From: Verrucomicrobiota bacterium
GTDB taxonomy: Bacteria > Verrucomicrobiota > Verrucomicrobiae > Limisphaerales > UBA11358
NCBI GenBank assembly: GCA_014860005.1
Contig: JACZKP010000076.1
Location: 186,001-250,000, forward strand
Reading direction: 5' to 3'
Length of the DNA: 64,000 nt
Numbering within the stretch: the stretch's first letter is position 1; each line of letters starts with the position of its first letter. Of the stretch, positions 12,531 to 45,619 are shown piece after piece. The notes beneath the pieces are model-generated. The model was not told the DNA's origin. It saw only the letters and a program-made list of their open reading frames with translations, and ran no database searches. The position numbers and the translations under genes are program-made.

Positions 12531-12650
12531 TTTAGCCGGTGTTGTGCCAGCGGCGCTGGCCGCTGCGCGGGCTATAAGAAGCAAGCGGTTATGAGAGCGG
12601 TGTGTGAAACGGTGCGCCGCGACGGTGGCGGGTGGGAATCCACCGCTGGT
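12531..12650 (-). promoter_or_regulatory. Sigma-54-like promoter with upstream dyad, element A
   Basis: On the minus strand TGGCAC-N7-GCTAAA occupies 12549-12531, with GG and GC ten bases apart as in -24/-12 promoters. Upstream, ACCAG-CG-GTGGA (12650-12639) followed by TTCCCACC aligns with the dyad block of element B; its inner end is 91 bp from the GG. It points at the receiver pair ending at 11276. The block extends to about 12660, into the region just before the divergent histidine kinase. Confidence 0.7.
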
Positions 12651-12667
12651 CAGTGGCTGGTCACTTT

Positions 12668-14029
12668 ATGAATGTCCGCCGACGATCCTACGGTTATGTG
12701 CTCGCCACGCTCGCGCTCGTGCTGGTCGTGGGCTGGGCGGGCCGCATCACCTGGCAGGAACTGCGGCAATTGCACCGGGGCTTCGCCTCCGTGCAGGCGG
12801 ATGCCTTTCACCTCTCCGAACATATCGAGGCGTCGGTTCTCGGCTTGAATGAACTGATGCTCCGCTTCGATCTGCGCCGTGACGCGCAAGATCGGGCCGC
12901 CTTTGAAAAGGAAAGCCAGGAGTTGCGCCAGTGGATTCGCGCGCACCAACCGACCGTCCTCACGCCGCGGGAAGCCGAGTTGCTGGGACAGATCGCGCCG
13001 GCGTTTGAAGTCTTCGTGTCGCGGGGCACGCTGCTGATGGACGAACGGGCGCAAGCCGGGACTGCCACATCGCCCGCACCGGTCCTGGAACGGGTGGAGA
13101 ACAAAGCCGCGCCCATCCTGGATCTATGCGAGAAATTGAAAGCAGCCGAGCGCGCCGCGCAAACGCAGTTCATGAAGGATTCCCACCGCGCGCTGGGCTG
13201 GTTGCAGCAACAGTTCATCGTGCAACTGGGGCTGCTGGTTCTGTTGTTGGGGACGGCAGCGGTGGCGATCTATCGCGGTGTGATTGGCCCGTTGCATGTC
13301 GAACTGGGCGAAAGCCGCGCCCGCGCCGCGCGGCACGAAAAGCTCGCCGCTCTCGGCACGCTCGCCGCCGGCGTGGCCCACGAAATCCGCAATCCGCTCA
13401 CGGCCATCAACGTCCGGCTGCACAGCCTGAAAAAGAACCTGGCCGAGAATTCGTCGGAACAGGAAGACGCCCAGGTGATCGGCCACGAAATCCAGCGCCT
13501 CGAACGCATCGTCCAGGGATTCCTCCAATTTGCCCGGCCCGGCGAGCCCCGGCTCATGACCGTTTCCGCCGACAGCCTGCTCGCCCGGATGCGATCCCTG
13601 TTCGGCCCGCAGTTGGAAAAGAACGCCATCGAGTTGAAGGTCGAATCCGTGCCGGATGTCTGGGTGCGGGTTGACCCGCATCAAATCGAACAGGTGTTGA
13701 TCAACCTGATTCAGAACGCGGCCGAGAGCCTGGAGGCTGGGGGCACGATCACCTTGCGCGCCCGCCCCGGCACAGGACGCCGACCGGGGGTGATCCTGGA
13801 GGTCAGCGACACCGGCACGGGCATCCCGCCGGAAGTCCAGAAACGAATGTTCGACCCGTTCTTCACCACCAAGGAGGAGGGCACGGGCCTGGGCCTGGCC
13901 ATTGCATCGCGCATCATCGAGAAGCATGGCGGCGCGCTGACGTGCCGTTCGGAGGTGGAGCGCGGCACAACCTTCACCATCCTGCTGCCCCACACGAAAT
14001 CAGAAACCAGTGATGAACCCGCACCCTAG
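12668..14029 (+). CDS. Sensor histidine kinase, NtrB-like
   Basis: A 453-residue membrane kinase. It has a first membrane segment near residues 7-27, a mainly helical extracytoplasmic region, and a second segment near 183-205. The kinase core follows: H-box AHEIRNPL (His238), N-box NLIQNAAES, G1 DTGTGIP, FFTTK and G2 GTGLGLAI. The ATG at 12668 is preferred because the 12 codons before it add an unnatural extension. Its stop overlaps the downstream sigma-54 activator gene by 17 bp, so the two form a cognate pair. The ligand is unknown. Confidence 0.88.
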   Translation: MNVRRRSYGYVLATLALVLVVGWAGRITWQELRQLHRGFASVQADAFHLSEHIEASVLGLNELMLRFDLRRDAQDRAAFEKESQELRQWIRAHQPTVLTPREAELLGQIAPAFEVFVSRGTLLMDERAQAGTATSPAPVLERVENKAAPILDLCEKLKAAERAAQTQFMKDSHRALGWLQQQFIVQLGLLVLLLGTAAVAIYRGVIGPLHVELGESRARAARHEKLAALGTLAAGVAHEIRNPLTAINVRLHSLKKNLAENSSEQEDAQVIGHEIQRLERIVQGFLQFARPGEPRLMTVSADSLLARMRSLFGPQLEKNAIELKVESVPDVWVRVDPHQIEQVLINLIQNAAESLEAGGTITLRARPGTGRRPGVILEVSDTGTGIPPEVQKRMFDPFFTTKEEGTGLGLAIASRIIEKHGGALTCRSEVERGTTFTILLPHTKSETSDEPAP

Positions 14030-15452
14030 AATCCTGTTGATCGAAGACGACCCCGGCATTGTGACCGGGTTGAAAAAAGAGTTGCAGTCCGAAGGCTATC
14101 AAGTGGACGTGGCCACGCGCGGCGATGATGGCCTGGCCCGTGCCAAGACTGAACCCTGCGACGTGGTGCTCACGGACTTGAAGATGCCGGGACTGTCCGG
14201 ACTCGAATTGATCGAGCAGCTCCACACCGCCAAACCGAAGCTGCCCATAATCATGATGACCGCGTTTGGCACGACGGAAACCGCCATCGAAGCCACCAAA
14301 CTCGGCGCTTACGACTATCTCCTCAAGCCGTTCGACATGGGCGAACTGCTCGATCTGGTCGCCAAGGCCGTGGCCAGCAGCCGGCGCATGTCCGAGCCGC
14401 TGGAAATGGGCGAAGCCCGCACGGCGCAGTCCGCCATCATCGGCAACAGCCGCGCCATGCAGGCCATCTACAAGGAAATCGGGCGCGTGGCGGCGACAGC
14501 CGTCACCGTGTTGATCCGCGGCGAGACCGGCACGGGCAAGGAACTGGTCGCGCGGGCGATTTACCAGCACAGCAACCGCGCCGCGCAACCGTTCGTCGCG
14601 GTCAATTGCGCGGCCATTCCGGAGACGCTGCTGGAAAGTGAACTGTTCGGCCACGAACGCGGCGCTTACACCGGGGCGCACACCCGCCGCGTGGGCCGCT
14701 TCGAGCAGGCCCATCGCGGCACAATCTTTCTCGACGAAATCGGCGACCTGAGCCTGAGCACCCAGGTCAAACTCCTGCGCGTGCTCCAGGAGAAATACAT
14801 CCAGCGCGTTGGCGGCAATGAAAGGATTCCGGTGGACGTGCGGGTGCTGACCGCCACGCATCGCGACCTGGAAAGCGCCATCCGGGAGAAACAATTCCGC
14901 GAGGATTTGTTTTACCGTTTGAGCGGCGTGACCATCACGCTGCCGCCGTTGCGACAGCGCCCGGAAGACGTGCCCGACCTGATCAAGTATTTCCTGCGCC
15001 GCTCCGCCACGGAACTGGGCAATGACTCGCCGGCCATCCAGCCGGAAGCCATCGCTTTCCTTCAAACCCAGCCGTGGCCCGGCAACGTGCGCGAACTGGA
15101 AAACGTCGTGCGCCAGTCGCTGCTCCTGGCCCGCGGCTACTCCGTCAGTCTCGAACACGTTCAACAAGCCTCCGCCCGCAGCCGCAAACCCGTCGGAACG
15201 GACCAAACCATCGCCGAATACTTCGCGGACTTGTTAGGCCGCGCGCAGCGCGGGGAAATCGAAAACACCCACGCCCGGATGGTGGAAGACATGGAGCGCG
15301 AACTTTACACCCGCGCCATCCAAGTGTCCCAAGGCAACCAGGCCAAAGCCGCCCGCTGGCTGGGCGTGACCCGCACCACCATGCGGGAGAAACTGGCCCG
15401 CTTCGGCTGGCGTGCCGCCGGCGAGACACCGGAACAACCCGCCAACCCCTGA
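14013..15452 (+). CDS. Sigma-54-dependent response regulator, NtrC family
   Basis: A 479-residue three-domain activator. The receiver (residues about 6-120) has Asp55 in LTDLKMPG and Lys in LLKPFD. The AAA+ domain has Walker A GETGTGKE (near residue 170), sigma-54-contact loop GAYTGA (217-222, Tyr for the usual Phe), Walker B GTIFLDEIGDL and R-finger region FREDLFYRL. A Fis-type HTH is at the C-terminus (NQAKAARWLGVTRTTMREKL). The GTG at 14010 directly before the ATG is an alternative start. It is the only sigma-54 activator in the window, so it is the obvious candidate to act at elements A-E; this is inference. Confidence 0.92.
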   Translation: MNPHPRILLIEDDPGIVTGLKKELQSEGYQVDVATRGDDGLARAKTEPCDVVLTDLKMPGLSGLELIEQLHTAKPKLPIIMMTAFGTTETAIEATKLGAYDYLLKPFDMGELLDLVAKAVASSRRMSEPLEMGEARTAQSAIIGNSRAMQAIYKEIGRVAATAVTVLIRGETGTGKELVARAIYQHSNRAAQPFVAVNCAAIPETLLESELFGHERGAYTGAHTRRVGRFEQAHRGTIFLDEIGDLSLSTQVKLLRVLQEKYIQRVGGNERIPVDVRVLTATHRDLESAIREKQFREDLFYRLSGVTITLPPLRQRPEDVPDLIKYFLRRSATELGNDSPAIQPEAIAFLQTQPWPGNVRELENVVRQSLLLARGYSVSLEHVQQASARSRKPVGTDQTIAEYFADLLGRAQRGEIENTHARMVEDMERELYTRAIQVSQGNQAKAARWLGVTRTTMREKLARFGWRAAGETPEQPANP

Positions 15453-15461
15453 GATCCGCCT

Positions 15462-15944
15462 ATGACCTGGCTGCAATGGGCGGAAGCCCTGAGCTACATC
15501 GTGACGGTGTTTGGCCTGCCACTGGCCATTCTTGTGTTTATGTATGAGCAGCGACGCGAGCGGCAGGGCGAAGAGGAGGAGATTTATCAGCGACTCTCCG
15601 ACGAATACACCGGCTTTCTCAAACTCGTGCTCAACAACCCGGACCTGCAATTGCTGCGCAAGGGCGCGCCGGAGCAGCCGCTGACCGACGAACAGAACGA
15701 GCGCAAGCTCGCCATCTTCAACATCCTCGTCTCCCTGTTCGAGCGCGCCTACCTGCTGGTGTTCGAGGAAAAGATGGACCGGCAGACCCAGCGCCTGTGG
15801 CTCTCCTGGGAGGACTACATGCGCGAGTGGTGTCGCCGGAAAGATTTCCGCGACGCCCTGCCGGAATTGCTCGGAGGCGAGGACGAGGATTTCCGCGCGC
15901 ACATCCAGAAAATCGCCGACGCCGAGGCGGCTGAAGGCAAGTGA
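15462..15944 (+). CDS. Small membrane-anchored protein of unknown function
   Basis: A 160-residue protein with one N-terminal membrane segment (ALSYIVTVFGLPLAILVFMYE), then a highly charged helical cytosolic part with several Glu-rich stretches and ...LWLSWEDYMREWCRRKDF. No family recognised with certainty. It starts 9 bp after the NtrC-family gene, so it is probably part of that operon and might modulate the two-component system. Confidence 0.65.
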   Translation: MTWLQWAEALSYIVTVFGLPLAILVFMYEQRRERQGEEEEIYQRLSDEYTGFLKLVLNNPDLQLLRKGAPEQPLTDEQNERKLAIFNILVSLFERAYLLVFEEKMDRQTQRLWLSWEDYMREWCRRKDFRDALPELLGGEDEDFRAHIQKIADAEAAEGK

Positions 15945-15997
15945 GAGCCGCTACATTCGGGCTGCGCCTCTGAGTTCCTGCAACTGGCCAGCCACCG

Positions 15998-16117
15998 GCC
16001 ACAGGTGGCTTCCGGCGCATCACCGCAGGTCGCCTTCCAACCGCAGGCAAGGCACGCAAACCGTTGCCGCCCTGCCGACGGTTGATTCTCGCTCGCGGTG
16101 GCACGAGGCCAGCTAAA
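15998..16117 (+). promoter_or_regulatory. Sigma-54-like promoter with upstream dyad, element E
   Basis: TGGCACG-N6-GCTAAA lies at 16099-16117; the -24 half is the exact sigma-54 consensus and GG/GC spacing is right. The dyad GCCAC-AG-GTGGC is at 15998-16009, 91 bp from its end to the GG, and is followed by TTCC...TCACCGC as in element B. Similarity to element B continues through the spacer (AAGGCACGCAA against AAGGCGCGTAA) and past the promoter (GAATCCGCGCC in both). The antiporter ATG is 67 bp after GCTAAA, with a six-codon reading frame (MGKPNR) between. Confidence 0.72.
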
Positions 16118-16183: not shown

Positions 16184-17131
16184 ATGATAGAAATGATCCT
16201 CTGGATAGCCGCCGCGCTCGTGCTCTTGTTCTTCGGGGCGGAGTGGCTCGTGCGCGGCAGCTCGGCGCTGGCGTTGCGCCTGGGCATCACGCCGCTCGTC
16301 ATCGGGCTGACGGTGGTGGCGTATGGGACGAGCATGCCGGAAATGGTCGTCAGCACCGTGGCGGCGCTGAAAGGCCAGGGCGACATTGCGGTGGGCAACG
16401 TGGTCGGCTCAAACATTTTCAACGTCTGCGTCATCCTCGGCCTGTCCGCGCTCGCGTTGCCGCTCCAGGTCAAACTGCAACTCATCCGCCTGGATGCTCC
16501 CCTTATGCTGGGCGCGTCGTTGGTATTCGTCGTGATGTTCCGGGATTTTCACATCTCCCGGCCTGAAGCCGGGTTGTTGCTGGCCGGCATCGTCGCCTAC
16601 ACCGTGGGCAGCGTCGTGCTGGCGCGCAAGGAGGTCAGCGCCGAAGTCCGGGAGGAGTTCGCCGAGGCCGTCCCGCGCCCGAAAGGCAAACCGTGGCGCG
16701 ACCTGCTGCTCATCCTCGGCGGTCTGGCGGTGCTGGTGATCGGTTCGCGGCTGCTCGTGACCAACGCGGTCGAACTGGCCCGGCTGCTCGGCATCGGCGA
16801 AGCCGTCATCGGCCTGACCATTGTGGCCGCTGGCACAAGCATGCCGGAGCTGGCCACGTCCGTCGTCGCGGCGTTTCGGAAACAGGCGGACATCGCCATC
16901 GGCAACATCGTTGGCTCGAATCTCTACAACCTTCTGGCGATCGTCGGTGTCTCGGGATTGCTCGCGCCGCTGGATGCGCCCGGCATCCGGATGCTCGACC
17001 TTTATGTGATGCTGGGAACGTCCGTCGCGCTGCTGCCGCTGATGTGGTCCGGCTTCGTGCTGAAACGCTGGGAGGGCGCGCTCCTGTTGGCGGCTTACGG
17101 TGGTTACCTCTATGTGCTCTGGCCAAAGTAA
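16184..17131 (+). CDS. Calcium/sodium antiporter, CaCA family (YrbG-like)
   Basis: A 315-residue membrane protein with about ten membrane segments and the two inverted alpha-repeats of the Ca2+/cation antiporter superfamily: [15 protein letters not shown] with [11 protein letters not shown], and [15 protein letters not shown] with [11 protein letters not shown]. It should exchange Ca2+ for Na+ or H+ across the inner membrane. I start at the ATG at 16184; the open frame to 16064 covers the promoter element. Its 3' end overlaps the MrpE-like gene, placing it at the head of the Mrp operon. Confidence 0.9.
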
Positions 17132-17660
17132 ATTCGGCCGCGCTTCGCAGGCGGCGACGCCCGTCCGTTTCGCAGGCGTCGCCGGGCGCGTGGCGTTCTT
17201 CGCCGCGCTCTGGTGGCTGCTCACCGGGGGCGACGCGCCTTCGTGGATTGTGGGCGGGCCGGTCGTGCTGGCGGCGGCGGCGTTGAGCGCGCGGCTGCGG
17301 CCGGAGCGGGCGTGGCGGTGGCGGCTCGCGGGCGTGTTGCCGATGGCGTGGTTTTTCCTGCGCGAATCCGTGCGCGGCGGCTTCGACGTGGCGCGGCGCG
17401 CGTTGCGGCCCAGCCTGCCGTTGAATCCCGGCATGCTCCGCTTCAACACGCGATTGCCGGACGGTTCGGGGCGGCTGTTTTTTACCGCGCTCATCAGCCT
17501 TCTGCCGGGCACGCTCGTGGTCGCCAGCGAGGGAGCGGTGTTGGAGATTCATGCGCTCGACGCCGGCCCGGGCGCGGAAAGTGAACTGCGCGCGCTGGAG
17601 GAACGAGTGGCCGGGCTGTTCGGCGTCGAACTGAACGCCTCCGGGGAGGCGACTTCGTGA
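17112..17660 (+). CDS. mrpE: Mrp/Mnh antiporter subunit E
   Basis: A 182-residue membrane protein with N-terminal hydrophobic helices and a C-terminal soluble domain containing [17 protein letters not shown] and VLEIHALD, the MrpE/MnhE (PF01899) signature. It is a small subunit of multi-subunit Na+/H+ antiporters. The ATG at 17112 lies inside the end of the antiporter gene (20-bp overlap); a GTG at 17100 is possible. It ends with a 4-bp overlap with mrpF. Confidence 0.85.
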
Positions 17661-17938
17661 GCGAATTCTGGTGGGCCATTGCGCTCGTGCTGCTCCTGAC
17701 CATCGTGGCCGGCGTGGTCTATGTCACGACGCGGCGCGGCGGCGTGGATGCGATGCTTGCGGCGCTGCTGTTCGGCACGACGGGCGTCGCCTTGGTCCTG
17801 GTGCTGGGCCGGGCGCTGGACCTGGGGCGGGCGGTGGACATCGCGCTGGCGCTCGCCCTGCTCGCGGCGGTGCTGGGCGTGACCTTCGTGCTGCGCGGCT
17901 GGCCGGAAGACGACACGGACGAGAACCCCGAACCATGA
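17657..17938 (+). CDS. mrpF: Mrp/Mnh antiporter subunit F
   Basis: A 93-residue protein with three membrane helices and the R-GGVDAMLAA context of MrpF/MnhF proteins. The GTG start at 17657 overlaps the stop of mrpE (GTGA), and its own stop overlaps the ATG of mrpG. Short acidic C-terminal tail. Role: small subunit of the Mrp complex. Confidence 0.82.
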   Translation: MSEFWWAIALVLLLTIVAGVVYVTTRRGGVDAMLAALLFGTTGVALVLVLGRALDLGRAVDIALALALLAAVLGVTFVLRGWPEDDTDENPEP

Positions 17939-18243
17939 ACGCCCTGGACTATTTGAAATTCGCCCTGCTGGCGGTCGCGCTGTTTTTCTTCATCGCGGGC
18001 ACGGTGGGGCTGCTGCGTTTTCCCGACCTCTATTGCCGGCTGCACGCGCTGACGAAGGCCGACAACGTGGGCCTGGGATTCCTGGTGCTGGCGTTGATGC
18101 TGGACGCCGCGAGCTGGCAGGAGGTCTTCAAGCTGGGTCTGATCTGGGTGATGGTGCTCGCGGCCAGCACAACCGTTTGCTTTCTCATCGCCAACGAAGC
18201 CCGCCGCCGCGGACGTTCACCACTGACAGGGAGGGGCGCATGA
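17935..18243 (+). CDS. mrpG: Mrp/Mnh antiporter subunit G
   Basis: A 102-residue, three-helix membrane protein with GTVGLLRFPDLYCRLHALTKADNVG, split here as VGLLRFPD and LHALTKADN, the MrpG/MnhG hallmark. Its ATG overlaps the mrpF stop and its stop overlaps the next ATG, so translation is tightly coupled. Confidence 0.87.
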   Translation: MNALDYLKFALLAVALFFFIAGTVGLLRFPDLYCRLHALTKADNVGLGFLVLALMLDAASWQEVFKLGLIWVMVLAASTTVCFLIANEARRRGRSPLTGRGA

Positions 18244-18518
18244 TGGCGCAGGTCTTCGATGCCGTGCTCGTGTTCACAATGGTCTGGCTCGCCTGGCGGT
18301 CGCTGGCGGATCGCGACCTGTTCCGCGCCGTGCTGAAGTTTGTCGCTCTGGGTCTGCTGCTGGCGGTGGCGTGGGTGCGGCTGCGCGCCCCGGACGTGGC
18401 GCTGGCCGAAGCCGCCGTGGGCAGCGCGCTCACGGGCGCGCTCATTCTCTCCGCGCTGGCGCGGATGAAACGCCGCGAGGCGGACGCGGCGAAACCAAAC
18501 TCGGAGAAGCAACCATGA
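18240..18518 (+). CDS. DUF4040 (MbhD-like) subunit of the Mrp complex
   Basis: A 92-residue membrane protein whose RAPDVALAEAAVGSALTGAL is the DUF4040/MbhD signature. This domain is normally the C-terminal part of the large MrpA subunit; here it is a separate gene, as in archaeal Mbh-type complexes. Start ATG at 18240 (a second ATG follows immediately); longer starts would overlap mrpG. Four-bp overlaps on both sides. Confidence 0.82.
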   Translation: MMAQVFDAVLVFTMVWLAWRSLADRDLFRAVLKFVALGLLLAVAWVRLRAPDVALAEAAVGSALTGALILSALARMKRREADAAKPNSEKQP

Positions 18519-19207
18519 AACTCCGCTGGCTCAACGGCAGTCTCTCCGTCGCGCTGCTGGCGCTGCTTGGCTGGGCGGTGCTGGCGCTGCCGCCCACGCC
18601 GCGCGGGCTGACCGGGCCGGCACTGGCCGAGTTGCCCAACAGCGGAGTGACTAATCCGGTCACGGCGGCGCTGTTGAACTATCGCGGCTACGACACGTTG
18701 CTGGAAGTCGCCGTCTTTCTGCTGGCGCTCGTCGGCGTGTGGTCGCTGCGCGAGGGCCGCTTGATGCGGGTGGACCTGAACGCGCGTCCGCTCCTGCTTT
18801 CCCTGCTGCGCCTGGTGCTGCCGGTGCTGGTGGTCGCCGGTGGTTATCTCTTGTGGATTGGCGCGTTCGCGCCCGGCGGGGCGTTCCAGGGCGGCGCGCT
18901 GCTGGGCGGGGCGTTCGTGCTGCTGCTCCTTGCGGGACTGGGCGGGAACGCGCTGAAGCATGAAGGCTGGCTGCGGCTCGGGCTGGCGCTTGGGCTGGCT
19001 GTGTTCGCGGGCGTCGGCGGCGGCGTGATGCTGCTGACGGGCGGACTGCTCGAATACCCGCGCGCTTCCGCCGGGAGCTGGATTCTGGCCATCGAAGCCG
19101 CCGCGCTCCTTTCGATCGGTCTGACCTTCGGGGGACTGTTCCTCGGCGGGCGGCCGGTGGCGGAAGGCGACGCGCCGCCGAACCCGGAAAGGGCTGCGCA
19201 TGATTGA
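18515..19207 (+). CDS. mrpB: Mrp subunit B fused to an MrpA C-terminal (MbhE-like) segment
   Basis: A 230-residue membrane protein. Its N-terminal part (NPVTAALLNYRGYDTLLE) matches the MbhE/MrpA C-terminal piece. The remainder, with APGGAFQGGALLGGAFVL, is MnhB (PF04039). The fusion of MbhE-like and MbhF/MrpB-like parts explains its length. Overlaps the preceding and following genes. Confidence 0.82.
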   Translation: MKLRWLNGSLSVALLALLGWAVLALPPTPRGLTGPALAELPNSGVTNPVTAALLNYRGYDTLLEVAVFLLALVGVWSLREGRLMRVDLNARPLLLSLLRLVLPVLVVAGGYLLWIGAFAPGGAFQGGALLGGAFVLLLLAGLGGNALKHEGWLRLGLALGLAVFAGVGGGVMLLTGGLLEYPRASAGSWILAIEAAALLSIGLTFGGLFLGGRPVAEGDAPPNPERAAHD

Positions 19208-19526
19208 CGAACATCACACGATCTACCTGCTGGCGGGCGCGGCGTTGTTCGTCCTCGGCTTCCACGGGCTGATGTCCCAGCCGCATCTCCTCAAAAAAAT
19301 CCTGGCGGTGAACATCATGAGCAGCGGCACGGCCTTGGTGTTCATCGCGCTGGCGGCGCGCACGCCGGGAGATGTGCCCGATCCGATTCCACATGCGATG
19401 GTGCTGACGGGCATCGTCGTGGCGGTGTGCGCGACGGGTCTGGCTCTGGCGCTGGCCGACCGCGTGCAGGCGGCCAACGGCAAAGCGGAGCTGGATGACA
19501 CGGACGACAAGGAGGGCGGCTCGTGA
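19200..19526 (+). CDS. mrpC: Mrp/Mnh antiporter subunit C (NuoK-like)
   Basis: A 108-residue protein with three membrane helices, similar to NuoK: YLLAGAALFVLG, LLKKILAVNIMSSGTALVFI and PHAMVLTGIVVAVCATGLAL. The conserved DPIPHAMVLTGIVV stretch is diagnostic of MrpC. Overlaps both neighbours. Confidence 0.88.
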   Translation: MIDEHHTIYLLAGAALFVLGFHGLMSQPHLLKKILAVNIMSSGTALVFIALAARTPGDVPDPIPHAMVLTGIVVAVCATGLALALADRVQAANGKAELDDTDDKEGGS

Positions 19527-21019
19527 CTCCGTCTGCCGCTCTGGCGATACTGATCCTCGGTCCGTTGGCCGGGGCGGTGCTGACCTTTGCCCTGCCCCGG
19601 CGCGGGCGCTGGCTGGCGTTTGTCGTCGCGGCGGTCACGGCCTGGAGTGCGGTGGCGCTGGCGCGGCACGTTCACGGCGGGGGAACGGTCCGGCATCTGA
19701 TGGGAGGCTGGGGCGCGCCACTGGGCATTGACCTGCGGGCCGACGGCCTGGCTGCATGGTTGTTGCTGGTCGCGGCGGGCGTGAGTTTCGCCGTGATGCT
19801 TTACGCGCCGCGTTACTTCATGCCGACACCGGCCCACGCCGACACTGGCGCGACGCACCGGCAGAAATATTTCTGGCCGCTCTTCCTCTTTCTGTGGGCG
19901 GCGTTGAACGCGCTGTTTCTTTCGGCGGACATTTTCAACCTCTACGTGACGCTCGAACTGCTGGGCTTCGCGGCGGTCACGCTGGTGGCTTTGGCGGGCG
20001 GGCGGGCGGCGCTCAACGCGGCCCTGCGTTACCTGTTCGTCAGTCTGGCGGGGTCGCTGTTCTACTTGATGGGCGTGGCGCTGGTGTATGGCGCGCACTC
20101 GACGGTGGACCTCACCCTGCTCGCGCAGCAGGTGCAGCCCGGCCCGGTGTCGTGGACGGCGCTGGCGCTGATGACCGCCGGCCTGATGATGAAGGCGGCC
20201 GTGTTTCCGATGCACTTCTGGCTGCCGCCCGCCCACGCCCACGCGCCCGCCCCGGTCAGCGCGCTGCTCTCGGCGCTGGTGGTGAAGGGCGCGTTTTATA
20301 TTTTGCTGCGGCTGTGGTTTGAGGCGTTCGGCCACGTCGTGACCCCGGCGGCGGGGCAGTGGCTTGGAGCGCTCGGGGCGGCGGCGATTCTCTGGGGTTC
20401 GGTGCTGGCGCTGTTTCAGTCGCGGCTGAAGTTGTTGATCGCTTACTCGACGGTGGCGCAGCTCGGCTATCTGCTTTTGGTTTTCCCATTGGCGGCAAAC
20501 CCGGGCGGCTTCAACGCGTGGGGCGGCGCGCTGCTGCTTCTGGCGGCGCACGCCTGCGCGAAGACGGCGCTGTTTCTCGCCGCAGGCAACCTGCTCCACG
20601 CCGCCGGGCACGACCGCATCAAGGATCTCGGCGGGCTCGCCCCTGTGCTGCCGTTGACGGTGACCACCTTCGCCCTCGCGAGCGTGAGTCTCATCGGCCT
20701 GCCGCCGAGCAGCGGCTTTGTGGGCAAATGGCTTCTGCTCAATTCGGCGTTGAGCCAGGGTCAATGGTGGTGGACCGCCGTCATCCTCGTGGGCGGACTG
20801 CTGGCGGCAGCCTACACCTGCCGTGTGTTGCTCCACTTTTTCACCAATGCGGACCAAGCGTCGAGCGCGACGCCGGTGCCAGCTGTGATGGAATGGACTG
20901 CGCTGTCGCTGGCGCTGCTCGCCGTGGTGCTGGGCCTGGCGGGGAGCTGGCCATTGGAGTTGCTGCGCGCGGGCGCGCCCGTGACCGGCCCGGTGCTCAT
21001 GGGAGGACCGGGGCCATGA
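19523..21019 (+). CDS. mrpD: Proton-translocating large subunit 1 (MrpD/NuoL-M-N family)
   Basis: A 498-residue, roughly 14-helix antiporter subunit. It keeps the helix-5 Glu (TLELLGF) and the helix-7 Lys (MMKAAVFPMHFWLP) used for proton transfer, then PAPVSALLSALVVKG. GTG start overlapping mrpC. First of three large subunits in this operon. Confidence 0.88.
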   Translation: MTPSAALAILILGPLAGAVLTFALPRRGRWLAFVVAAVTAWSAVALARHVHGGGTVRHLMGGWGAPLGIDLRADGLAAWLLLVAAGVSFAVMLYAPRYFMPTPAHADTGATHRQKYFWPLFLFLWAALNALFLSADIFNLYVTLELLGFAAVTLVALAGGRAALNAALRYLFVSLAGSLFYLMGVALVYGAHSTVDLTLLAQQVQPGPVSWTALALMTAGLMMKAAVFPMHFWLPPAHAHAPAPVSALLSALVVKGAFYILLRLWFEAFGHVVTPAAGQWLGALGAAAILWGSVLALFQSRLKLLIAYSTVAQLGYLLLVFPLAANPGGFNAWGGALLLLAAHACAKTALFLAAGNLLHAAGHDRIKDLGGLAPVLPLTVTTFALASVSLIGLPPSSGFVGKWLLLNSALSQGQWWWTAVILVGGLLAAAYTCRVLLHFFTNADQASSATPVPAVMEWTALSLALLAVVLGLAGSWPLELLRAGAPVTGPVLMGGPGP

Positions 21020-22512
21020 ACCTGAACGGCGCATTGTTGCTCGGCATTCTGTTCAGCTCGTTCGTGACGGGACTGGTCATCTTTTACCTCAAGGAGGAGA
21101 GCCGCCGGCTGCGCACCTGGCTGAACCTGCTGGGCGCGGGGTCGAAACTCGTCCTGGTCCTGGCGTTGTTGCGGGGAGTGGCTGGCGGCCAGTCCTACGA
21201 GTTTCGCTGGACGATGGCGTCGGGCCTTGAGTTCGCCCTCGGCGCGGATGCGAACGCGTTGCTGTTCGTCACGCTCTCGGCCGTGCTGTGGTTTCTCACC
21301 ACGCTTTACGCGATCGGCTATCTTGAAGACTCGCCGCATCGGGGCCGGTTCTTCGGTTTTTTCAGCCTATGCGTGAGCGCGACGACGGGACTGGCGCTGG
21401 CGTCGAACCTGGTGACGTTTCTCATCTTCTTCGAATTGCTCACCATCTCGACCTATCCGCTGGTGGTGCATCGCGGCACGGCGAAGACCATGCGGGCCGG
21501 CGCGGTTTATCTCGCCTACACGCTGGGCGGCGGCGCGGTGTTGCTGCTGGCGGTGGCGTGGTTGCAGAGTATTGCCGGGCCGGTGGACTTCACCGAGCGC
21601 GGCGCGCTGGCGGGCGTGGCGGTGTCGCATCGGGGCGAACTGCAAATCATCTTCCTGCTCTTCATCGTCGGACTGGGTGTGAAGGCCGCCTTGGTGCCGC
21701 TGCACGGATGGCTGCCCAAGGCGATGGTGGCGCCCGCGCCGGTGAGCGCGTTGCTGCACGCCGTGGCGGTGGTGAAGGCGGGCGCGTTCGGCATCGTGCG
21801 CGTGGTGTATGACGTTTATGGCGTGAAGACCGCCGAGGAGTTGGATGTGTTGAGCCCGCTGGCCTGGGCGGCGGCGTTCACCATCGTGTATGGCTCGGTG
21901 CGCGCGCTTTATCAGGACGAGCTAAAGAAGCGGCTCGCTTACTCCACGATCAGCCAGGTGTCCTACATCATTTTGGGCGTGGCGATCTTCGGGCCGCTGG
22001 CGACTGTCGGCGGGATCGTGCATCTCGTGCATCAGGGCATCATGAAAATCACGCTGTTCTTCGGCGCGGGCAATTACGCCGAGACGCTGGGCATTCATCG
22101 CGTGAGCGAAATGAACGGCGTGGGCCGGCGCATGCCGTGGACGACCGCCGCCTTCACCGTCGGCGCGATGGGAATGATCGGCATTCCGCCGCTGGCTGGC
22201 TACGTCAGCAAGTGGTATCTGCAACAAGGCGCGGCGCAGGCTGGCGATGAATGGGTGGCACTGGTGCTGGGCGCGAGCAGCCTGCTCAACGCCGCGTATT
22301 TCCTCCCGATTCTTTATCGCGCCTATTTCCTCCCACCGCCGGAGAAATGGCCCGCCGAGCACCGTTTCGGCAAATGGGAAACGCACTGGATGCTGCTGCT
22401 GCCGATGCTGGTCACGGCGGCACTCGTCATCTATGCGGGCGTTTTTGCGGAATCGCCTTTCAGCCCGCTGGCTTGGGCGAAGGTCATCATGCGCCGGGAA
22501 TACGAACCATGA
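21016..22512 (+). CDS. Proton-translocating large subunit 2 (NuoL/MrpA-like family)
   Basis: A 498-residue polytopic subunit with the helix-5 Glu (FFELLTISTYPLV), helix-7 Lys (GLGVKAALVPLHGWLPKAM) and APAPVSALLHAVAVVKAG. The ATG at 21016 overlaps the previous stop (ATGA); the longer open frame starting inside subunit 1 is an artefact. It could serve as the N-terminal half of a split MrpA. Confidence 0.87.
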   Translation: MNLNGALLLGILFSSFVTGLVIFYLKEESRRLRTWLNLLGAGSKLVLVLALLRGVAGGQSYEFRWTMASGLEFALGADANALLFVTLSAVLWFLTTLYAIGYLEDSPHRGRFFGFFSLCVSATTGLALASNLVTFLIFFELLTISTYPLVVHRGTAKTMRAGAVYLAYTLGGGAVLLLAVAWLQSIAGPVDFTERGALAGVAVSHRGELQIIFLLFIVGLGVKAALVPLHGWLPKAMVAPAPVSALLHAVAVVKAGAFGIVRVVYDVYGVKTAEELDVLSPLAWAAAFTIVYGSVRALYQDELKKRLAYSTISQVSYIILGVAIFGPLATVGGIVHLVHQGIMKITLFFGAGNYAETLGIHRVSEMNGVGRRMPWTTAAFTVGAMGMIGIPPLAGYVSKWYLQQGAAQAGDEWVALVLGASSLLNAAYFLPILYRAYFLPPPEKWPAEHRFGKWETHWMLLLPMLVTAALVIYAGVFAESPFSPLAWAKVIMRREYEP

Positions 22513-35393: not shown

Positions 35394-36347
35394 CTATTGC
35401 CCGCGAATGAGCGGCAGCAACTGGCTGACGTTCACCGAGCCGGCCTTCTGTTGAATCTCACCCGCGTAACGCGAGTGCATCGAGCGGGCCTGCTCCGTGA
35501 GTGAGCCAAACGTCGAGCGCAGTTCGATGGCCGAGAGCTTGCGTCCGCCCGCATAGTATTGCTGGGCGAGCCTGCCCAGCGCCCACGTCGTCGCGAACGA
35601 CATCACCGAACTGGTGGCTTGCTTGCCCACGGTCTTGAGCATTCCGCCGCCCACCTTGCCCAGCAGTCCGCCCAGCAGTTTTCGCGCGTAGCCCTCCAGC
35701 ACCTGCGAACTCAAGCCCAGCCCCGCCGCCGCCAGCAGTTCCTTGATGTGGCCGCGTCCGAGTTCGTGCCCGTAACTCTTGCCGACGCGATAAACCATCT
35801 TCATCTGCAACGGCACGATGGCCATCGTCGCCAGTGATTCGGGGAGCAACTCCAGCGCGCCGTTCAGGATGGCGTAGTTCAGGACCATCTTGTCCACCTG
35901 CGCGTCCACAGCCGCAGGTTGAGTCGCCAGCGCGGCGGCGATGACCGGCGGCGCGGGCGTGAGGTCCGCCAGCGGCTCGACGGCGAGGGCTTCGGCGGCG
36001 CGATCCACGGCCGCCGTTGCCTTCTCCTCCAGCTTGAATTCGCGGCGCAGCCCGGCCAGGAACGTCTTCTCCGCGTCCGACTGCGCGCCATCCGCGTCGC
36101 AAACGCACACGGCCATTTCGTAGGCCAGTTGGCGGAGTTCTGGCGATTGGAGCGCCGCGGCGGCCTGCGCGGGCGTCACCTGTTTCAGCAGCACCCGCTG
36201 GTAAATCGCGGCGGGTTGCACGTCCGCATGGGGCAGGTTTTCGGCGATGCGTTTGAGTTCAGCGCGCTCGGCGTCGTGCTTCGCGCCGTCGGCAAACGCC
36301 GCCATCAGCGCCAGGGTGAGAATGGATTCTTGTTCAATGGGTGTCAT
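35394..36347 (-). CDS. TerB-like domain protein with C-terminal membrane-associated region
   Basis: A 317-residue protein. The N-terminal 120 residues are helical and TerB-like (LALMAAFADGAKHDAERAELKRIA, shown here as AAFADGAKHDAERAEL; repeated acidic DADGAQSDAE). The C-terminal 170 residues (MVYRVGKSYGHELGRGHIKELL, then Gly-rich LLGGLLGKVGGGML) resemble the hydrophobic C-terminal region of DUF697/YcjF-type proteins. TerB domains bind metal and co-occur with TerC, its neighbour 41 bp downstream. Confidence 0.72.
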   Translation of the reverse strand: MTPIEQESILTLALMAAFADGAKHDAERAELKRIAENLPHADVQPAAIYQRVLLKQVTPAQAAAALQSPELRQLAYEMAVCVCDADGAQSDAEKTFLAGLRREFKLEEKATAAVDRAAEALAVEPLADLTPAPPVIAAALATQPAAVDAQVDKMVLNYAILNGALELLPESLATMAIVPLQMKMVYRVGKSYGHELGRGHIKELLAAAGLGLSSQVLEGYARKLLGGLLGKVGGGMLKTVGKQATSSVMSFATTWALGRLAQQYYAGGRKLSAIELRSTFGSLTEQARSMHSRYAGEIQQKAGSVNVSQLLPLIRGQ

Positions 36348-36377
36348 GGTTCTTCAGGTGTGTTTTCAGGCTGCTCC

Positions 36378-36725
36378 TCATCCCCAACCGAATTCCTTGA
36401 TGTCCATTTTCCACGTGTCATCGGTGACGAGGAGCATTCGGTCGTTCAATTCGTAGCGAACTTTCTCCAGATCCACCGCGGGCGGCACGACGTTCACAAT
36501 GAGCGTGCCGTCGGTGAGGGAAAAGATTTTCGTGCGCTTGTCCGGTCGCTTCACGAACAAATGGTTGCTCAAATCATCAATGACGAAAACGTAGCCCGTG
36601 GCCCGGGCCACTCCCTGTTCGCAGTCCTCGATTTCGCCGATAAAGTGGCGGCGAACATCCTTGTCAAAGAGTCGCCGGTGGATCACGTGGACTTTCTCAC
36701 CGGGCTTGAGAATGGAAGATTTCAT
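36378..36725 (-). CDS. Conserved-looking hypothetical protein
   Basis: A 115-residue soluble protein, beta-rich in appearance (KVHVIHRRLFD, RRHFIGEIEDCE, GYVFVIDD, TLIVNVVPPAV). No family recognised. It starts 1 bp after the stop of the membrane protein gene upstream and is followed 30 bp later by the TerB-like gene, so it belongs to the run starting at element C. Confidence 0.65.
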   Translation of the reverse strand: MKSSILKPGEKVHVIHRRLFDKDVRRHFIGEIEDCEQGVARATGYVFVIDDLSNHLFVKRPDKRTKIFSLTDGTLIVNVVPPAVDLEKVRYELNDRMLLVTDDTWKMDIKEFGWG

Positions 36726-36726
36726 A

Positions 36727-37224
36727 TCAGTTCGTCGGTCGGCCGGACACTGGATGCCGCTTCCCTGGTGAGTTTGCAGGTTGGTTTCTCGCTTGAGCGG
36801 AATCGGGCGCGTTGCCGTTGAGCGTCCCCAGTGCGCGATTTCGCGCGAGCAAGGCCAGCATTCCCAGCGTGGTGGCCCACATGCAGGTGATCAACGTGGC
36901 CGCGAACCATTTCTCCGATTGTCCGTCGGCGAACGCCATCCACCCGACAATGGATCGCCAGGTGAACGCGGCAAAGAATACGCCGCAGCAAACCATCGCC
37001 GCGATCCGCGCCCACGAGAAACCCCGGCCCAGCAAGACGCCCCAGACAATCGAAAGCCCGCCGCAGATGCCGCCGGAGATCAACGCCGTTTTGGCGGCGG
37101 GATTGAAACCAATGGCAGCGCTCTTCGGCTCATACATCACGGCCACGAAACCCGCACCCATCAGAAACAGGCCGTAACCAACGAGCCATTTTGCACCGGA
37201 GTTTGTCATGCGCGCTTTATTCAT
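36727..37224 (-). CDS. Small integral membrane protein (paralogue of 11-373)
   Basis: A 165-residue protein with about four membrane helices and a polar Asn/Gln-rich tail. ALISGGICGGLSIVWGVLLGRGF aligns with the protein at 11-373 (quoted here as SIVWGVLLGRGF). Function unknown. The ATG at 37224 overlaps the last codons and stop of the short ORF upstream, which suggests translational coupling; an ATG at 37209 is an alternative. Confidence 0.68.
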   Translation of the reverse strand: MNKARMTNSGAKWLVGYGLFLMGAGFVAVMYEPKSAAIGFNPAAKTALISGGICGGLSIVWGVLLGRGFSWARIAAMVCCGVFFAAFTWRSIVGWMAFADGQSEKWFAATLITCMWATTLGMLALLARNRALGTLNGNAPDSAQARNQPANSPGKRHPVSGRPTN

Positions 37225-37417
37225 TGATTCCCCACCGGCGAAAAAGTTGAACCGGCGGAATCGCCGCGTCACTTGCGGGCTGGCCCTGGGAAGGTGCGCT
37301 GATCCCGTCGTATTGGCCCGTTTGTTCCTCAGCGCCCTTGTCGTGCTTCGGGAACTGGCCACTCTTGTCTTGCGGTATCGCCTCGAATGATTTGAAAATT
37401 CGGAATGCTGCTTTCAT
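37217..37417 (-). CDS. Small protein (66 aa) downstream of promoter element C
   Basis: A 66-codon ORF, MKAAFRIFKSFEAIPQ..., with a natural polar composition (KHDKGAEEQTGQYDG). It begins 50 nt after the GC of the sigma-54-like motif and its stop overlaps the start of the next gene. Of the short ORFs after the five elements, this one looks most like a real protein. Its N-terminus resembles MKQPIILKSFSAL after element B. No strong RBS. Confidence 0.5.
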   Translation of the reverse strand: MKAAFRIFKSFEAIPQDKSGQFPKHDKGAEEQTGQYDGISAPSQGQPASDAAIPPVQLFRRWGINE

Positions 37418-37462: not shown

Positions 37463-37580
37463 TTTAGCTACGCGTATGCCAGCGGGTCAGGCGGCGGCGC
37501 GGGCCTTGCGATCTAACGAATTATGCGAATTAGCGGCTGGCCAATCATCCCAAGGTGAGCAGTGAGCCGCCACCGGCGGT
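37463..37580 (-). promoter_or_regulatory. Sigma-54-like promoter with upstream dyad, element C
   Basis: On the minus strand TGGCAT-N7-GCTAAA occupies 37481-37463. The dyad ACCGC-CG-GTGGC lies at 37580-37569, its inner end 89 bp from the GG. It points into the long minus-strand run from 37417 down to about 27173. The interval up to the purC stop (37619) contains nothing else I can support. Confidence 0.68.
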
Positions 37581-37618
37581 CAGTCAGTCGCCACACCCGG
37601 AAGATCGCCCATCGAATT

Positions 37619-43531: not shown

Positions 43532-43547
43532 AATCGTGGAGAGCTTT

Positions 43548-44234
43548 TCATCGCCGATCCCTCCCGGTCAGCAATGGCAGCAAGTGCCAGAGGAAATAGA
43601 TCAGCGAGGAAACGAACGCGGCCACATACGTCCAACCCGCCGCGTTCAACACCTGACTCACGGCGGCCCGTTCCGCGCCGGCCTGAATGAAGCCCATGTT
43701 CGCCAGCACGAGTTTGGCGCGGCGCGAGGCGTCGAATTCGACCGGCAGTGTGACGAGGTTGAAGGCCATGAGGATGCCCCACGCCACGGCCATGATTAAC
43801 AGACCGACTTTGGGCGCGAGCAGCCCGGTGAACATGCCGAGAAGCGGAATCCACATGACGATCTGGCTGGCGAAACTGGTGACACCCACCGCCGCCATGC
43901 GCAATTGCAGCGGGGCGTAAGCCTGCTTGTGCTGAATGGCGTGGCCACATTCATGCGCCGCCACGCCCAGTGCCGCGGCGGAAGTGCCGTGATAATTGGC
44001 CGAGGAGAGCACCAGTCGCTTGTGCTTCGGGTCGTAATGGTCGCCCAGCAGTTCTTCATGCTCGACGATGGTGACGTTGGTGATGCCGGCCTGCCGCAAA
44101 ATCTCATGCGCCGCTTCCGCGCCGGTGTAGCCGCCCACCGTGGGCGTGCGACTGTGCCGGGCATACGTTCGTTTGACGTGCCATTGGGCCAAGAGGCCAA
44201 TCGCCAGAGTGCAGAGGAATAGGATCAGGATCAT
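43548..44234 (-). CDS. Zinc metallopeptidase, YugP family
   Basis: A 228-residue membrane protease of the PF04298 family with the zinc site AAHECGHAIQH, an N-terminal membrane helix and three further hydrophobic segments. GGYTGAEAAHEILRQAGI and DHYDPKHKRLVLSS are typical. The ATG overlaps the stop of the small membrane protein upstream (ATGA). Last gene of the three-gene run from element D. Confidence 0.88.
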   Translation of the reverse strand: MILILFLCTLAIGLLAQWHVKRTYARHSRTPTVGGYTGAEAAHEILRQAGITNVTIVEHEELLGDHYDPKHKRLVLSSANYHGTSAAALGVAAHECGHAIQHKQAYAPLQLRMAAVGVTSFASQIVMWIPLLGMFTGLLAPKVGLLIMAVAWGILMAFNLVTLPVEFDASRRAKLVLANMGFIQAGAERAAVSQVLNAAGWTYVAAFVSSLIYFLWHLLPLLTGRDRR

Positions 44235-44455
44235 AGGCTTGGTTGTTTCAGCGGTGGATTCTTACCGAGCAAAAACGCGCGGACGCGGCGCAGCCAACCT
44301 TTGGCACGCTCCCATTCAATGGTCAAAATGCCCCCGCCGCCGGGAATCACGAACATGACCAGGACCGCCAGCGCCACCACGACTGCAAAGATGACCAGCG
44401 CCGTGCCGCCCGCCGCTGCCGCGATCAAACTCTTGATGGTTGGCAGGACGTTCAT
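44231..44455 (-). CDS. Small membrane protein (74 aa)
   Basis: One long hydrophobic segment (GGTALVIFAVVVALAVLVMFVI) quoted here as ALVIFAVVVALAVLVMFVI, followed by a basic amphipathic tail. It overlaps both neighbours by 4 bp, between DUF502 and the protease, which supports it as a real gene. Family not recognised. Confidence 0.65.
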   Translation of the reverse strand: MNVLPTIKSLIAAAAGGTALVIFAVVVALAVLVMFVIPGGGGILTIEWERAKGWLRRVRAFLLGKNPPLKQPSL

Positions 44456-45228
44456 GGGAAAACCTCGGATTGGCCCGCTTCGCGACGAGCGGTGGCCAGG
44501 GGCGCGCCCGCACCATTTTGTCCGGCGTCACCGTGACGCTTTGGATCCACCGGGTTCGCGCCAGCCAGGGCCTTGGCTGGCGGCGCGTAGTCCGGGGCGA
44601 CGGAGCCAAGACTGATGATGAACTTGATGCCGTCGGCCACGGACATGTCCAGTTTGGTCACGTCTTTTTCCGGCACCAGAACGATGAAGCCGGTGGTGGG
44701 GTTGGGCGTGGTGGGCACGAAGACGCTGACCACCTTCTCCTGGGTTTTGTGCTGCACTTCTCCGTGCTGGGCGCCGGTGATGAAGCCGACCGAGTAAACA
44801 CCGGCGCGGGGGAACTCCACCAGCACCACTTGCTTGAACGACGAGGTCTTGCTGGAGGTGAACGCCTGGTTGATCTGCTTGATCGCGCCGTAGATTTTGT
44901 TGAGCAGAGGCACGCGCATCAGGGCGAGGTCCGCCCACTGAATCAGCTTTTTGCCCAGATAGTGGCGGGCGAAACGGCCAACCAGCGAGATCAGCCCAAT
45001 CGCCAGCACCAGGGCGAACAAGCTCCAATACCAGTGCATCGGCCCTTCGCCGGCGCGTTCGTGCGTCCAGTCCTTCGGCAGGAAAAAGAGCAGGGCATCG
45101 GTAAAATTGGAGACGGTGCCGAACAGCCAGACGAAGGCGCCGATGGACAGGAGGGCGGGCAGGATCACCGCCAGGCCGGTAAAGAAATTGGCTTTCCAGT
45201 GGGCAGGAGCTTTTTTCATCGTTGGCAT
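44452..45228 (-). CDS. DUF502 family membrane protein
   Basis: A 258-residue protein with two N-terminal membrane helices (FFTGLAVILPALLSIGAFVWL; LFALVLAIGLISLVGRF) and a soluble domain with VPLLNKIYGAIKQI, VVLVEFPRAGVYSVGFITG (shown as VEFPRAGVYSVGFITG) and VFVPTTPNPTTGFIVLVP, the DUF502 (PF04367) signature. The C-terminal 40 residues are low-complexity. Function of the family is unknown. Confidence 0.85.
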   Translation of the reverse strand: MPTMKKAPAHWKANFFTGLAVILPALLSIGAFVWLFGTVSNFTDALLFFLPKDWTHERAGEGPMHWYWSLFALVLAIGLISLVGRFARHYLGKKLIQWADLALMRVPLLNKIYGAIKQINQAFTSSKTSSFKQVVLVEFPRAGVYSVGFITGAQHGEVQHKTQEKVVSVFVPTTPNPTTGFIVLVPEKDVTKLDMSVADGIKFIISLGSVAPDYAPPAKALAGANPVDPKRHGDAGQNGAGAPLATARREAGQSEVFP

Positions 45229-45308
45229 TTTTCCGTGGTCATGGTGCTCAGGGTGATTCCCCGGATTCCGGCGCTTCTAAAGAATCAGGCAGCCCGCCGT
45301 CTTCGTGT

Positions 45309-45452
45309 TCATGGGGCGCAACATTTGTTTCCTTTCATTCGGGCGGGCCGGTGGCCGTCACTTTGGAAGCCGGCGTGGCGACTGGCGCTGTCTTGTCGCC
45401 CTCGGGACGCGACCCGGCCAGATAATTGCGGGTCATTGAATTGGGATTTCAT
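45309..45452 (-). CDS. Possible short ORF downstream of promoter element D
   Basis: A 47-codon ORF starting ATG-AAA (MKSQFNDPQLSGRV), 55 nt after the GC of the motif. In a second frame, 45335-45436 encodes 33 residues (MTRNYLAGSRPEGDK...) that look at least as natural. Neither has a good RBS and only one, if any, is likely real. The remaining leader to 45229 shows no other gene. Confidence 0.25.
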   Translation of the reverse strand: MKSQFNDPQLSGRVASRGRQDSASRHAGFQSDGHRPARMKGNKCCAP

Positions 45453-45502
45453 TTCACGTATTGCTGCTGGCCCGAAGTCTGTTTGACGACGGGCGAGAAT
45501 CC

Positions 45503-45619
45503 TTTAGCCGGTGCGATGCCAGCAAACGCGCCTAGTTCGGCTGGCTTAACCACAAGGAGTTGTGACTTCTGCTTCCTTGGTTGTAAGTTCAGCGGTGGTG
45601 AGTGGGAAGCCATGTGCGA
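45503..45619 (-). promoter_or_regulatory. Sigma-54-like promoter with upstream block, element D
   Basis: On the minus strand TGGCAT-N7-GCTAAA occupies 45521-45503. GTCGCACATGGC followed by TTCCCACTCACCACCGC begins at about 45620; the dyad itself is weak but the TTCCCACT block is identical to element B. Inner end to GG is 89 bp. It points at the DUF502 operon. The opposite side leads to the ligase-like gene. Confidence 0.65.

Follow-up and report, generated by a model that had tools for sequence, protein, structure and literature searches.

A predicted sigma-54 regulon with paired upstream dyads and an adjoining kinase/activator pair in an order of Verrucomicrobiota

Introduction

In the NtrB/NtrC and ZraS/ZraR systems, a kinase is paired with an activator of the receiver-AAA-Fis type, and the upstream sites are paired dyads. 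A gene pair of the same kind is at the center of this study, which deals with a composite element, made up of a sigma-54-type -24/-12 core and a conserved upstream block, that occurs five times (copies c1 to c5) in a 64,000-nucleotide stretch of DNA from a Verrucomicrobiota bacterium (contig JACZKP010000076.1, positions 186,001 to 250,000; this whole stretch is called the window below). The targets predicted here differ from those of NtrC and ZraR, the NtrC site differs from the GTGG-N11-CCAC dyad of our element, and the activator encoded in the window scores below the NCBIfam cut-offs for both ntrC (503.8 versus 558.6) and ZraR (394.7 versus 760). PspF, which governs the phage shock response, a sigma-54-dependent response to membrane stress, has no receiver domain. 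Against the PspF model our activator reaches 279 (cut-off, 444), and no PspA-type family was present among the downstream proteins scanned.

In architecture, the closest described system that we found is the PrsK/PrsR regulon; in targets, it is the sigma-54 control that has been predicted for GroEL, GroES, and IbpA. PrsK/PrsR controls PEP-CTERM genes in Proteobacteria (Haft et al. 2006, PMC1569441). According to the available portion of that paper, it resembles the present system in having one kinase and one NtrC-like regulator, with an activator motif upstream of a GG/GC sigma-54 site; its element is reported never to lie inside genes, and it was found through the matching distributions of element and proteins. 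The two systems differ in the spacer, which has a mean of 62.8 nt (standard deviation, 10.6) in the PrsR element compared to 88 to 92 bp here (measured from a reference column to the TGG), and in their targets, which are PEP-CTERM genes for PrsR and stress and ion genes in our case. Table 1 of the same paper, as available, lists neither PrsK nor PrsR for Verrucomicrobium spinosum. An identity with the PrsR/PEP-CTERM system was rejected on scores, as the activator reached 411.3 against the TIGR02915 cut-off of 502.6 and the kinase 99 against 300 for PrsK. Since it remains below the curated cut-offs of NtrC, PrsR, ZraR, and PspF, the activator is an unnamed member of the NtrC family.

Regarding the targets, sigma-54 control has been predicted for GroEL, GroES, and IbpA in Planctomycetota and Bacteroidota and for MscS in Planctomycetia (PMC12316311). 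The likeness to our set lies in chaperone and mechanosensitive-channel genes with sigma-54 promoters outside Proteobacteria; the difference is that the accessible sections of that paper name no activator or enhancer site for these promoters and, among the Verrucomicrobiota, cover only Opitutia (motility and CXXC proteins). More generally, sigma-54 has been linked with the cell exterior (PMC3162934, in the sections at hand). Literature searches, which covered open PubMed Central papers, turned up neither this element nor any sigma-54 regulon described for the order of Verrucomicrobiota considered here.

Results

An earlier note, made on the letters of this DNA, had reported five exact copies of TGGCAY-N7-GCTAAA, and all five were found again: TGGCACAACACCGGCTAAA at 12531 to 12549 on the minus strand (c1), TGGCACGAGGCCAGCTAAA at 16099 to 16117 on the plus strand (c2), TGGCATGAAGTCAGCTAAA at 24440 to 24458 on the plus strand (c3), TGGCATACGCGTAGCTAAA at 37463 to 37481 on the minus strand (c4), and TGGCATCGCACCGGCTAAA at 45503 to 45521 on the minus strand (c5). 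In 300 order-1 Markov simulations based on the dinucleotide transitions of the window, exact matches occurred with a mean of 0.003 and a maximum of 1. When up to three mismatches were allowed, the pattern was not enriched (48 observed, 68 expected), and the evidence is therefore carried by the exact matches and by the upstream block. A scan of the window with the full model, which includes these sites, gave exactly five strong sites (E ≤ 2.3e-13), while the next-best match (E = 0.01) lay on the opposite strand over the dyads of c3. All five copies are located outside predicted genes and, as had been claimed, face the next gene, which is on the same strand in 5/5 cases; only 3.7% of 137-nt placements in the window fall outside predicted genes. 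Genes were called with a simple codon-usage script here and in the related loci, their starts are provisional, and some mechanical open reading frames (ORFs) extend further. If GC is taken as position -12, the transcription start of c1 would be near 12523. The usual sigma-54 consensus is TGGCAC-N5-TTGC, of which the TT is common rather than defining; the -12 boxes of the five copies read CGGC, CAGC, CAGC, TAGC, and CGGC, so that GC is kept and the TT is absent.

The conserved upstream block described in the note was present in all five copies, in a nearly gap-free alignment, and was weakest in c4. It is not the single dyad that had been proposed, since it consists of two 19-bp dyads of the GTGG-N11-CCAC type that are exactly 21 bp apart. 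The self-similarity of the profile was positive at offset 21 only (offsets 5 to 31 tested), and 0 of 20,000 column permutations reached its value. In c1, the inner dyad GTGGATTCCCACCCGCCAC occupies 12625 to 12643 and the outer dyad GTGACCAGCCACTGACCAG 12646 to 12664, both on the minus strand. The kinase gene, on the other strand, is predicted to start at 12668, and the outer dyad lies just ahead of this point, ending 3 bp short of it, so that activator binding there could also influence the activator's own operon. On the plus strand, outer and inner dyads are found at 15984 to 16002 and 16005 to 16023 in c2 and, as GTGGCCTGCCGCTGGCCAC and GTGGCTTCCCACTCGTCAC, at 24325 to 24343 and 24346 to 24364 in c3. 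On the minus strand, they are found at 37576 to 37594 and 37555 to 37573 in c4, where both are imperfect, and at 45616 to 45634 and 45595 to 45613 in c5. The dyad centers are about 132 and 111 bp upstream of the predicted start, within the range of roughly 100 to 150 bp that is looked for in enhancer sites. The inner dyad begins 94, 94, 94, 92, and 92 bp before the T of TGG in c1 to c5, and the three-plus-two spacing that had been reported from another measuring point thus holds. The unit was initially taken to be a 12-bp dyad (GTGGC-NN-GCCAC) repeated at 21 bp; in the light of the profile and of the distant homologues, we adopted the 19-bp dyad instead.

A third conserved block, of the AACnnGTTG type, is located between dyads and core and starts 42 bp (41 bp in c5) before the TGG. 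It reads TAACCGCTTG in c1 (12582 to 12591, minus strand), CAAACCGTTG in c2 (16057 to 16066, plus), TAAGCTGTTG in c3 (24398 to 24407, plus), TAATTCGTTA in c4 (37514 to 37523, minus), and CAACTCCTTG in c5 (45553 to 45562, minus). Its letters fit the right half of the IHF consensus, and its inner symmetry would also fit a second regulator.

The candidate regulator is encoded next to c1. A predicted sensor, a membrane histidine kinase with HisKA and HATPase_c domains (12668 to 14029, plus strand), is followed by an NtrC-type sigma-54 activator with receiver, Sigma54_activat, and Fis-type helix-turn-helix domains (14013 to 15452, plus strand), which we predict to regulate the five promoters. PF00072, PF00158, and PF02954 all scored above cut-off in this one protein, as expected for the NtrC family. 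Members of this family contact sigma-54 through a loop with the motif GAFTGA; the loop reads GAYTGA here, by eye in the translation, which is a conservative change. The named best matches of the NtrC-type protein were mostly verrucomicrobial, and the genome matches include 'Verrucomicrobia subdivision 3 bacterium'. The gene that immediately follows that of the activator (15462 to 15944, plus strand) encodes a 160-amino-acid protein for which no family was found; proteins that look alike by eye lie near sites in two loci of relatives (L163 and L212).

We searched for the element in related genomes with profiles built from ten seed sites, then 15 sites (model R1), and then 47 sites (model R2). 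The R1 model found it at E ≤ 0.001 in at least 31 of 293 genomes, which represent the order of the genome carrying the closest locus and were drawn from a larger group. At E ≤ 1e-4, the R2 model found it in at least 6 of 384 genomes of a class sample, all six of them already in the order set, and in at least 1 of 387 genomes of a phylum sample, this one being the genome of the closest locus itself. In these large searches few candidates were scored per genome and the filters were strict, and the counts are therefore lower bounds. At the closest locus (L001), whose activator is 85% identical, the element lies on both sides of the same two-component pair, and a third site in that genome, found with the ten-seed profile, lies upstream of a FloA flotillin gene (FloA match on L165).

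From 89 matches, we set aside 26 in short loci (L172 to L195 and L207), which were mostly second copies of longer loci. Among the remaining 63, a filter of at least 21 bits and a span of more than 110 model positions was failed by 12, leaving 51 sites and, after removal of four near-duplicates, an alignment of 47 rows. The earlier note had named sites inside genes or in random orientation, as for a mobile repeat, as the outcome that would overturn its reading. In the related genomes, 51/51 filtered sites (15/15 used to train R1 and 36/36 others) were located entirely in the gaps between predicted genes and had the following gene on their own strand, compared to 14% of random placements counted as intergenic. 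The 36 are not fully independent, since close relatives (G082 and G110) contributed some of them. The start of the next predicted gene was 8 to 138 nt away in 29 of these sites and 171 to 344 nt away in 22, some of the longer gaps holding a small ORF. Outside this tally are 15 weaker, partial, or short-locus hits, of which three overlap a predicted gene and three have the next gene on the opposite strand, with one doing both. They divide into two overlaps and one opposite gene among the 12 filter failures and one overlap and two opposite genes at three short-locus places (L191, L192, and L193).

Five copies in 64 kb, each with dyads, could also be expected from a mobile or repeated element, such as a miniature inverted-repeat transposable element or a repetitive extragenic palindrome, that contains the motifs by chance. 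The intergenic placement and uniform orientation of the filtered sites make this extremely improbable, as do the similarity of the copies mainly in the functional blocks (most spacer columns between them carry 0.0 to 0.3 bits) and the presence of orthologous sites at the same place in other genomes. Between the c1 sites of the window and of the L001 genome, the dyads are kept at 42/43 positions and the first spacer at 21/27. Furthermore, the 25 longest inverted pairs in the window include only the c3/c5 dyad block. A structured, riboswitch-like leader RNA upstream of ion genes would likewise account for the ion transporters downstream and for a conserved upstream region. We consider it hardly credible, given that the conserved blocks precede the predicted start, that no Rfam match at the gathering threshold was found in the window, and that the consensus fold of the 47 sites has 3 pairs, no covariation, and -0.84 kcal/mol. 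A scan of the window for tRNA and tmRNA found none.

Over the 47 sites, the core is invariant at GG, CA, and GCT only, with N10 between GG and GC, a consensus of TGGCACAnnGCCAGCTAAA, and a -12 box consensus of CAGC. The invariance of GG and GC in 47/47 sites is partly due to selection, because the sites were collected with a profile containing both. The tail of the core varies in the relatives (GCTTAA, GCTACG, GCTAGA, and others), and GCTAAA is therefore the form of the window. The note had regarded the GCTAAA tail and a strict spacing as going beyond the general consensus. This is true of the exact tail in the window copies, whereas only GCT is kept in the relatives and the spacing is not fixed: a reference column in the inner dyad is 88, 89, 90, 91, and 92 bp away from the TGG in 3, 7, 16, 13, and 8 of the 47 sites, respectively.

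Taken as a whole, a dedicated sigma-54 regulon, as the note had suggested, is the best-supported reading, in view of the filtered sites lying between genes and facing them, of the NtrC-type activator and kinase in the window, and of rpoN, which was found in 13 of 14 element-bearing relatives tested. We conclude that the elements almost certainly form a sigma-54 regulon and that the adjoining kinase/NtrC-type pair is very probably its regulator. Among the matches listed, activator homologues with 73% identity or more are present in 19 of the 293 genomes (as fragments in G010 and G186). The element was found at E ≤ 0.001 in 19/19 of these genomes and in 12/274 of the others (Fisher p = 4e-22, uncorrected for kinship and with a threshold set post hoc). 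As the activator listing omits low scores, short close fragments could be missed. At E ≤ 1e-4, sites occur on 36 contigs in 27 genomes, and 20 of the 36 also carry an activator among the matches listed (hand count).

The closeness of element and activator is most evident in G001, a genome of 8.2 Mb in which 7/7 strong sites lie within about 4.5 kb of one of three activator homologues (84, 78, and 63% identity). This genome holds five activator homologues at E ≤ 1e-120, four of them among the matches listed. Its contigs C284, C201, and C1 carry paralogous kinase/activator systems, each with its own nearby copies of the element. Beside a 65% homologue on contig C235, no core was found at the usual place in the divergent region.

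To look further afield, we examined 20 regions upstream of activator homologues at 65 to 71% identity. In 14/20, a divergent -24/-12 core points away from the kinase gene, 1500 to 1900 nt from the activator-side end of the region. Eleven of these 14 contain a GTGG-N11-CCAC dyad, up to one mismatch being allowed, whose start lies between -115 and -112 or between -94 and -92, as in the 47 sites, against a chance background of about 0.09 per 180 nt. One of them (L253) is the same site as one of the 47 rows, which leaves 10 new dyad cases among 13 promoters. The letters inside the dyads differ among these loci, with GTGGTCCGCCGCGGACCAC in L256, GTGGATACCAAGTTACCAC in L268, and, with two mismatches in the inner register, ATGGAATGATTTGTTCCAT in L254. 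The sequence TGGAATGATTTGTTCC in L006 and L012 had been considered a separate enhancer class, which was dropped because this sequence, too, is a 19-bp dyad that occupies the inner register, with different letters in its interior. An inner dyad of TGGAATGATTTGTTCC or near it was seen in the same register in L254 (the same genome region as L006), L012, and L261, and this recurring set of letters may mark a sub-class of activators.

These distant loci bear on a further possibility, in which the block would be an array of sites for a conventional sigma-70 activator or repressor and the match to TGGCAY-GCTAAA would be incidental. Such an array would fit a -12 half that departs from TTGC and an AACnnGTTG block that could belong to another regulator. 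We regard it as very unlikely, since GG and GC at N10 are invariant in the aligned sites (in part by selection, as stated above), the layout recurs beside the distant homologues, and the adjoining activator has a sigma-54 interaction domain.

Several observations weigh against a regulon governed by the adjoining pair. At the level of the promoter, the -12 half is CAGC, CGGC, or TAGC in place of the usual TTGC, and c4 scored 46 bits in the full-model scan of the window compared to 68 to 74 for the other four copies. The core alone is barely enriched (25 matches versus 17 in a backward control in 8 genomes; of the 25, 4 have both dyads and 2 more have poor partial dyads). Since a search with just the core comes close to background, we used the composite model genome-wide; specificity is a property of the composite, not of the core. 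Between the orthologous c1 sites, the second spacer (17/20) and the core (19/20) are also well kept, so that the footprint contrast is modest. Of the distant promoters, 3/14 lack a dyad within one mismatch, and 6/20 distant loci lack a divergent core at the expected place. In addition, rpoN was not found in G002, one of the 14 element genomes tested, and the other four of the five genomes in the family of G001 gave only weak hits (best E, 0.0017). Regarding the co-occurrence test, the 73% threshold was chosen after seeing the data, genome kinship is uncorrected, and no element was detected in most of the 217/293 genomes that carry an activator homologue at E ≤ 1e-120. Conversely, 12 genomes carry the element without a close activator, including G158 with five sites in the R1 scan and seven in a later one, and 16/36 site-bearing contigs (E ≤ 1e-4) have no activator among the matches listed. 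Incomplete assemblies could be the reason for elements without a close activator.

The last two counts would also be explained if the sigma-54 promoters were real and served by another NtrC-type protein elsewhere in the genome, the adjoining pair being merely among the targets. Genomes of the order do carry several activator homologues (at least up to five at E ≤ 1e-120, with five candidates scored in each). We nevertheless consider this unlikely, given the co-occurrence in 19/19 genomes and the closeness of sites and activators, including the three homologous systems of G001 with their flanking sites, and given that divergent promoters beside distant homologues share the dyad register. Control by the adjoining pair thus remains our preferred reading.

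The predicted targets in the window fall into five units. Downstream of c1, gene calls and domain scans identified two CheY-like receiver proteins on the minus strand (11764 to 12258 and 11276 to 11743). On the plus strand, c2 is followed by a sodium/calcium exchanger (16193 to 17131, with an alternative ATG near 16184) and by Mrp-type Na+/H+ antiporter genes (17112 to 24260, matching Pfam family in 8/9 frames), and c3 by a receiver-domain protein (24780 to 25199) and a CheY-like receiver protein (25196 to 25702), identified in the same way as those of c1. On the minus strand, the c4 unit (33503 to 37224) encodes two unknown proteins, a DUF533-like protein just below cut-off, TerC (34381 to 35352), and an Ion_trans channel (33503 to 34384), and the c5 unit (43548 to 45219) encodes a DUF502 membrane protein (44452 to 45219), a small hydrophobic protein (44231 to 44455), and a neutral zinc metallopeptidase (43548 to 44234).

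In the relatives, where 20 selected downstream proteins were compared with Pfam, the first predicted genes after the element encode receiver proteins, FloA, GroES (with GroEL second), Hsp20, DUF4383, MscS, TerC, zinc metallopeptidase, and Usp (L169). In second or later position, where target status is less certain, we found NfeD, the S30AE hibernation factor (L167), AMPK1_CBM (L204), a cation ATPase (L163), Usp (L210), Mrp (L217), DUF502 (L218), and VTT (L164). This gene list suggests a common theme of membrane, ion, and protein-folding stress, and because the element precedes chaperones, flotillin, and universal stress proteins in relatives, the regulon would appear to serve these stresses.

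Several promoters are followed by small leader ORFs of one family, which we call KSF. In the window, they are located after c3 (MKQPIILKSFSALS..., 24515 to 24733, plus strand) and after c4 (MKAAFRIFKSFEAI...RWGINE, 37217 to 37417, minus strand), and in relatives in L006 (8199 to 8441), L164 (9301 to 9507), L165 (6863 to 7141), L171 (10082 to 10372), L214 (9417 to 9650), and L222 (9452 to 9670). They encode 66 to 96 amino acids, start 64 to 78 nt after the first base of TGG, and begin with MKxxIVLKSFxALS or similar. In the eight aligned ORFs, K8, S9, and F10 are invariant and the rest is variable, and two end in RWGINE or RWGIKE. When the alignment was used as a query, 19 database proteins matched at E ≤ 0.01, including the two from the window itself; among the matches are three with verrucomicrobial names and two named Candidatus Paceibacterota, all of them hypothetical proteins. 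An NCBIfam scan of the two window members gave no match. The leader of c1, MKMKKPVNLASALS, looks similar and is outside the alignment.

Further along the window, a four-gene block at 45691 to 51374 (plus strand), one gene of which has a DUF3854 domain, is unlike the surrounding stress genes; our guess would be a mobile or integrated segment. The stretch from 51544 to the window end at 63999 (plus strand) is a single open frame, about 4150 codons long, which to the eye might encode a giant exported repeat protein. It contains a 300-nt direct repeat (55189 to 55488 and 55639 to 55938) that is 89% identical, with a 450-nt spacing.

Discussion

Our analysis confirms the observation that started it and supports a probable new sigma-54 regulon with its own activator, whose mechanism would be of a kind already known. 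The best explanation overall, which we hold with good confidence, is that the membrane kinase/NtrC-type pair co-activates five sigma-54 units through two-dyad enhancers. The kinase would sense an envelope or ionic signal and, judging from the domains, phosphorylate the receiver domain of the NtrC-type protein. The latter would bind as two dimers on one face of the helix, on dyads whose distance of 21 bp corresponds to two helical turns. The intervening DNA would then bend, perhaps at the AACnnGTTG block, allowing the activator to remodel RNA polymerase-sigma-54 on the GG-N10-GC layout that is seen in the DNA. As a result, the five units would be induced together, namely, the receivers, the Na/Ca exchanger with Mrp, TerC with the ion channel, and DUF502 with the zinc protease.

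As far as their available text goes, sigma-54 surveys outside Proteobacteria predict promoters without an activator. The present analysis derives promoter, probable binding sites, activator, kinase, and target set jointly from sequence, in a group that is represented in it almost only by metagenome assemblies. It predicts that some of these bacteria would switch their chaperonins and membrane-stress genes by means of an ATP-driven activator.

More tentatively, and at somewhat less than even chances, we propose that in this one order of Verrucomicrobiota the dedicated two-component sigma-54 system is a combined response to envelope, ion, and folding stress that drives GroES-GroEL, Hsp20, flotillin, and Mrp from one two-dyad enhancer, with stand-alone receivers as main outputs, small leader-encoded proteins of a new family made first at several promoters, and the paralogues as insulated parallel stress circuits. 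If this is true, paralogous systems would have kept the promoter and the two-dyad register while their inner dyad letters changed, so that one cell would hold a family of such circuits. Alike in register and different in letters, these paralogues would offer a natural series in which the divergence of activator-DNA specificity can be followed.

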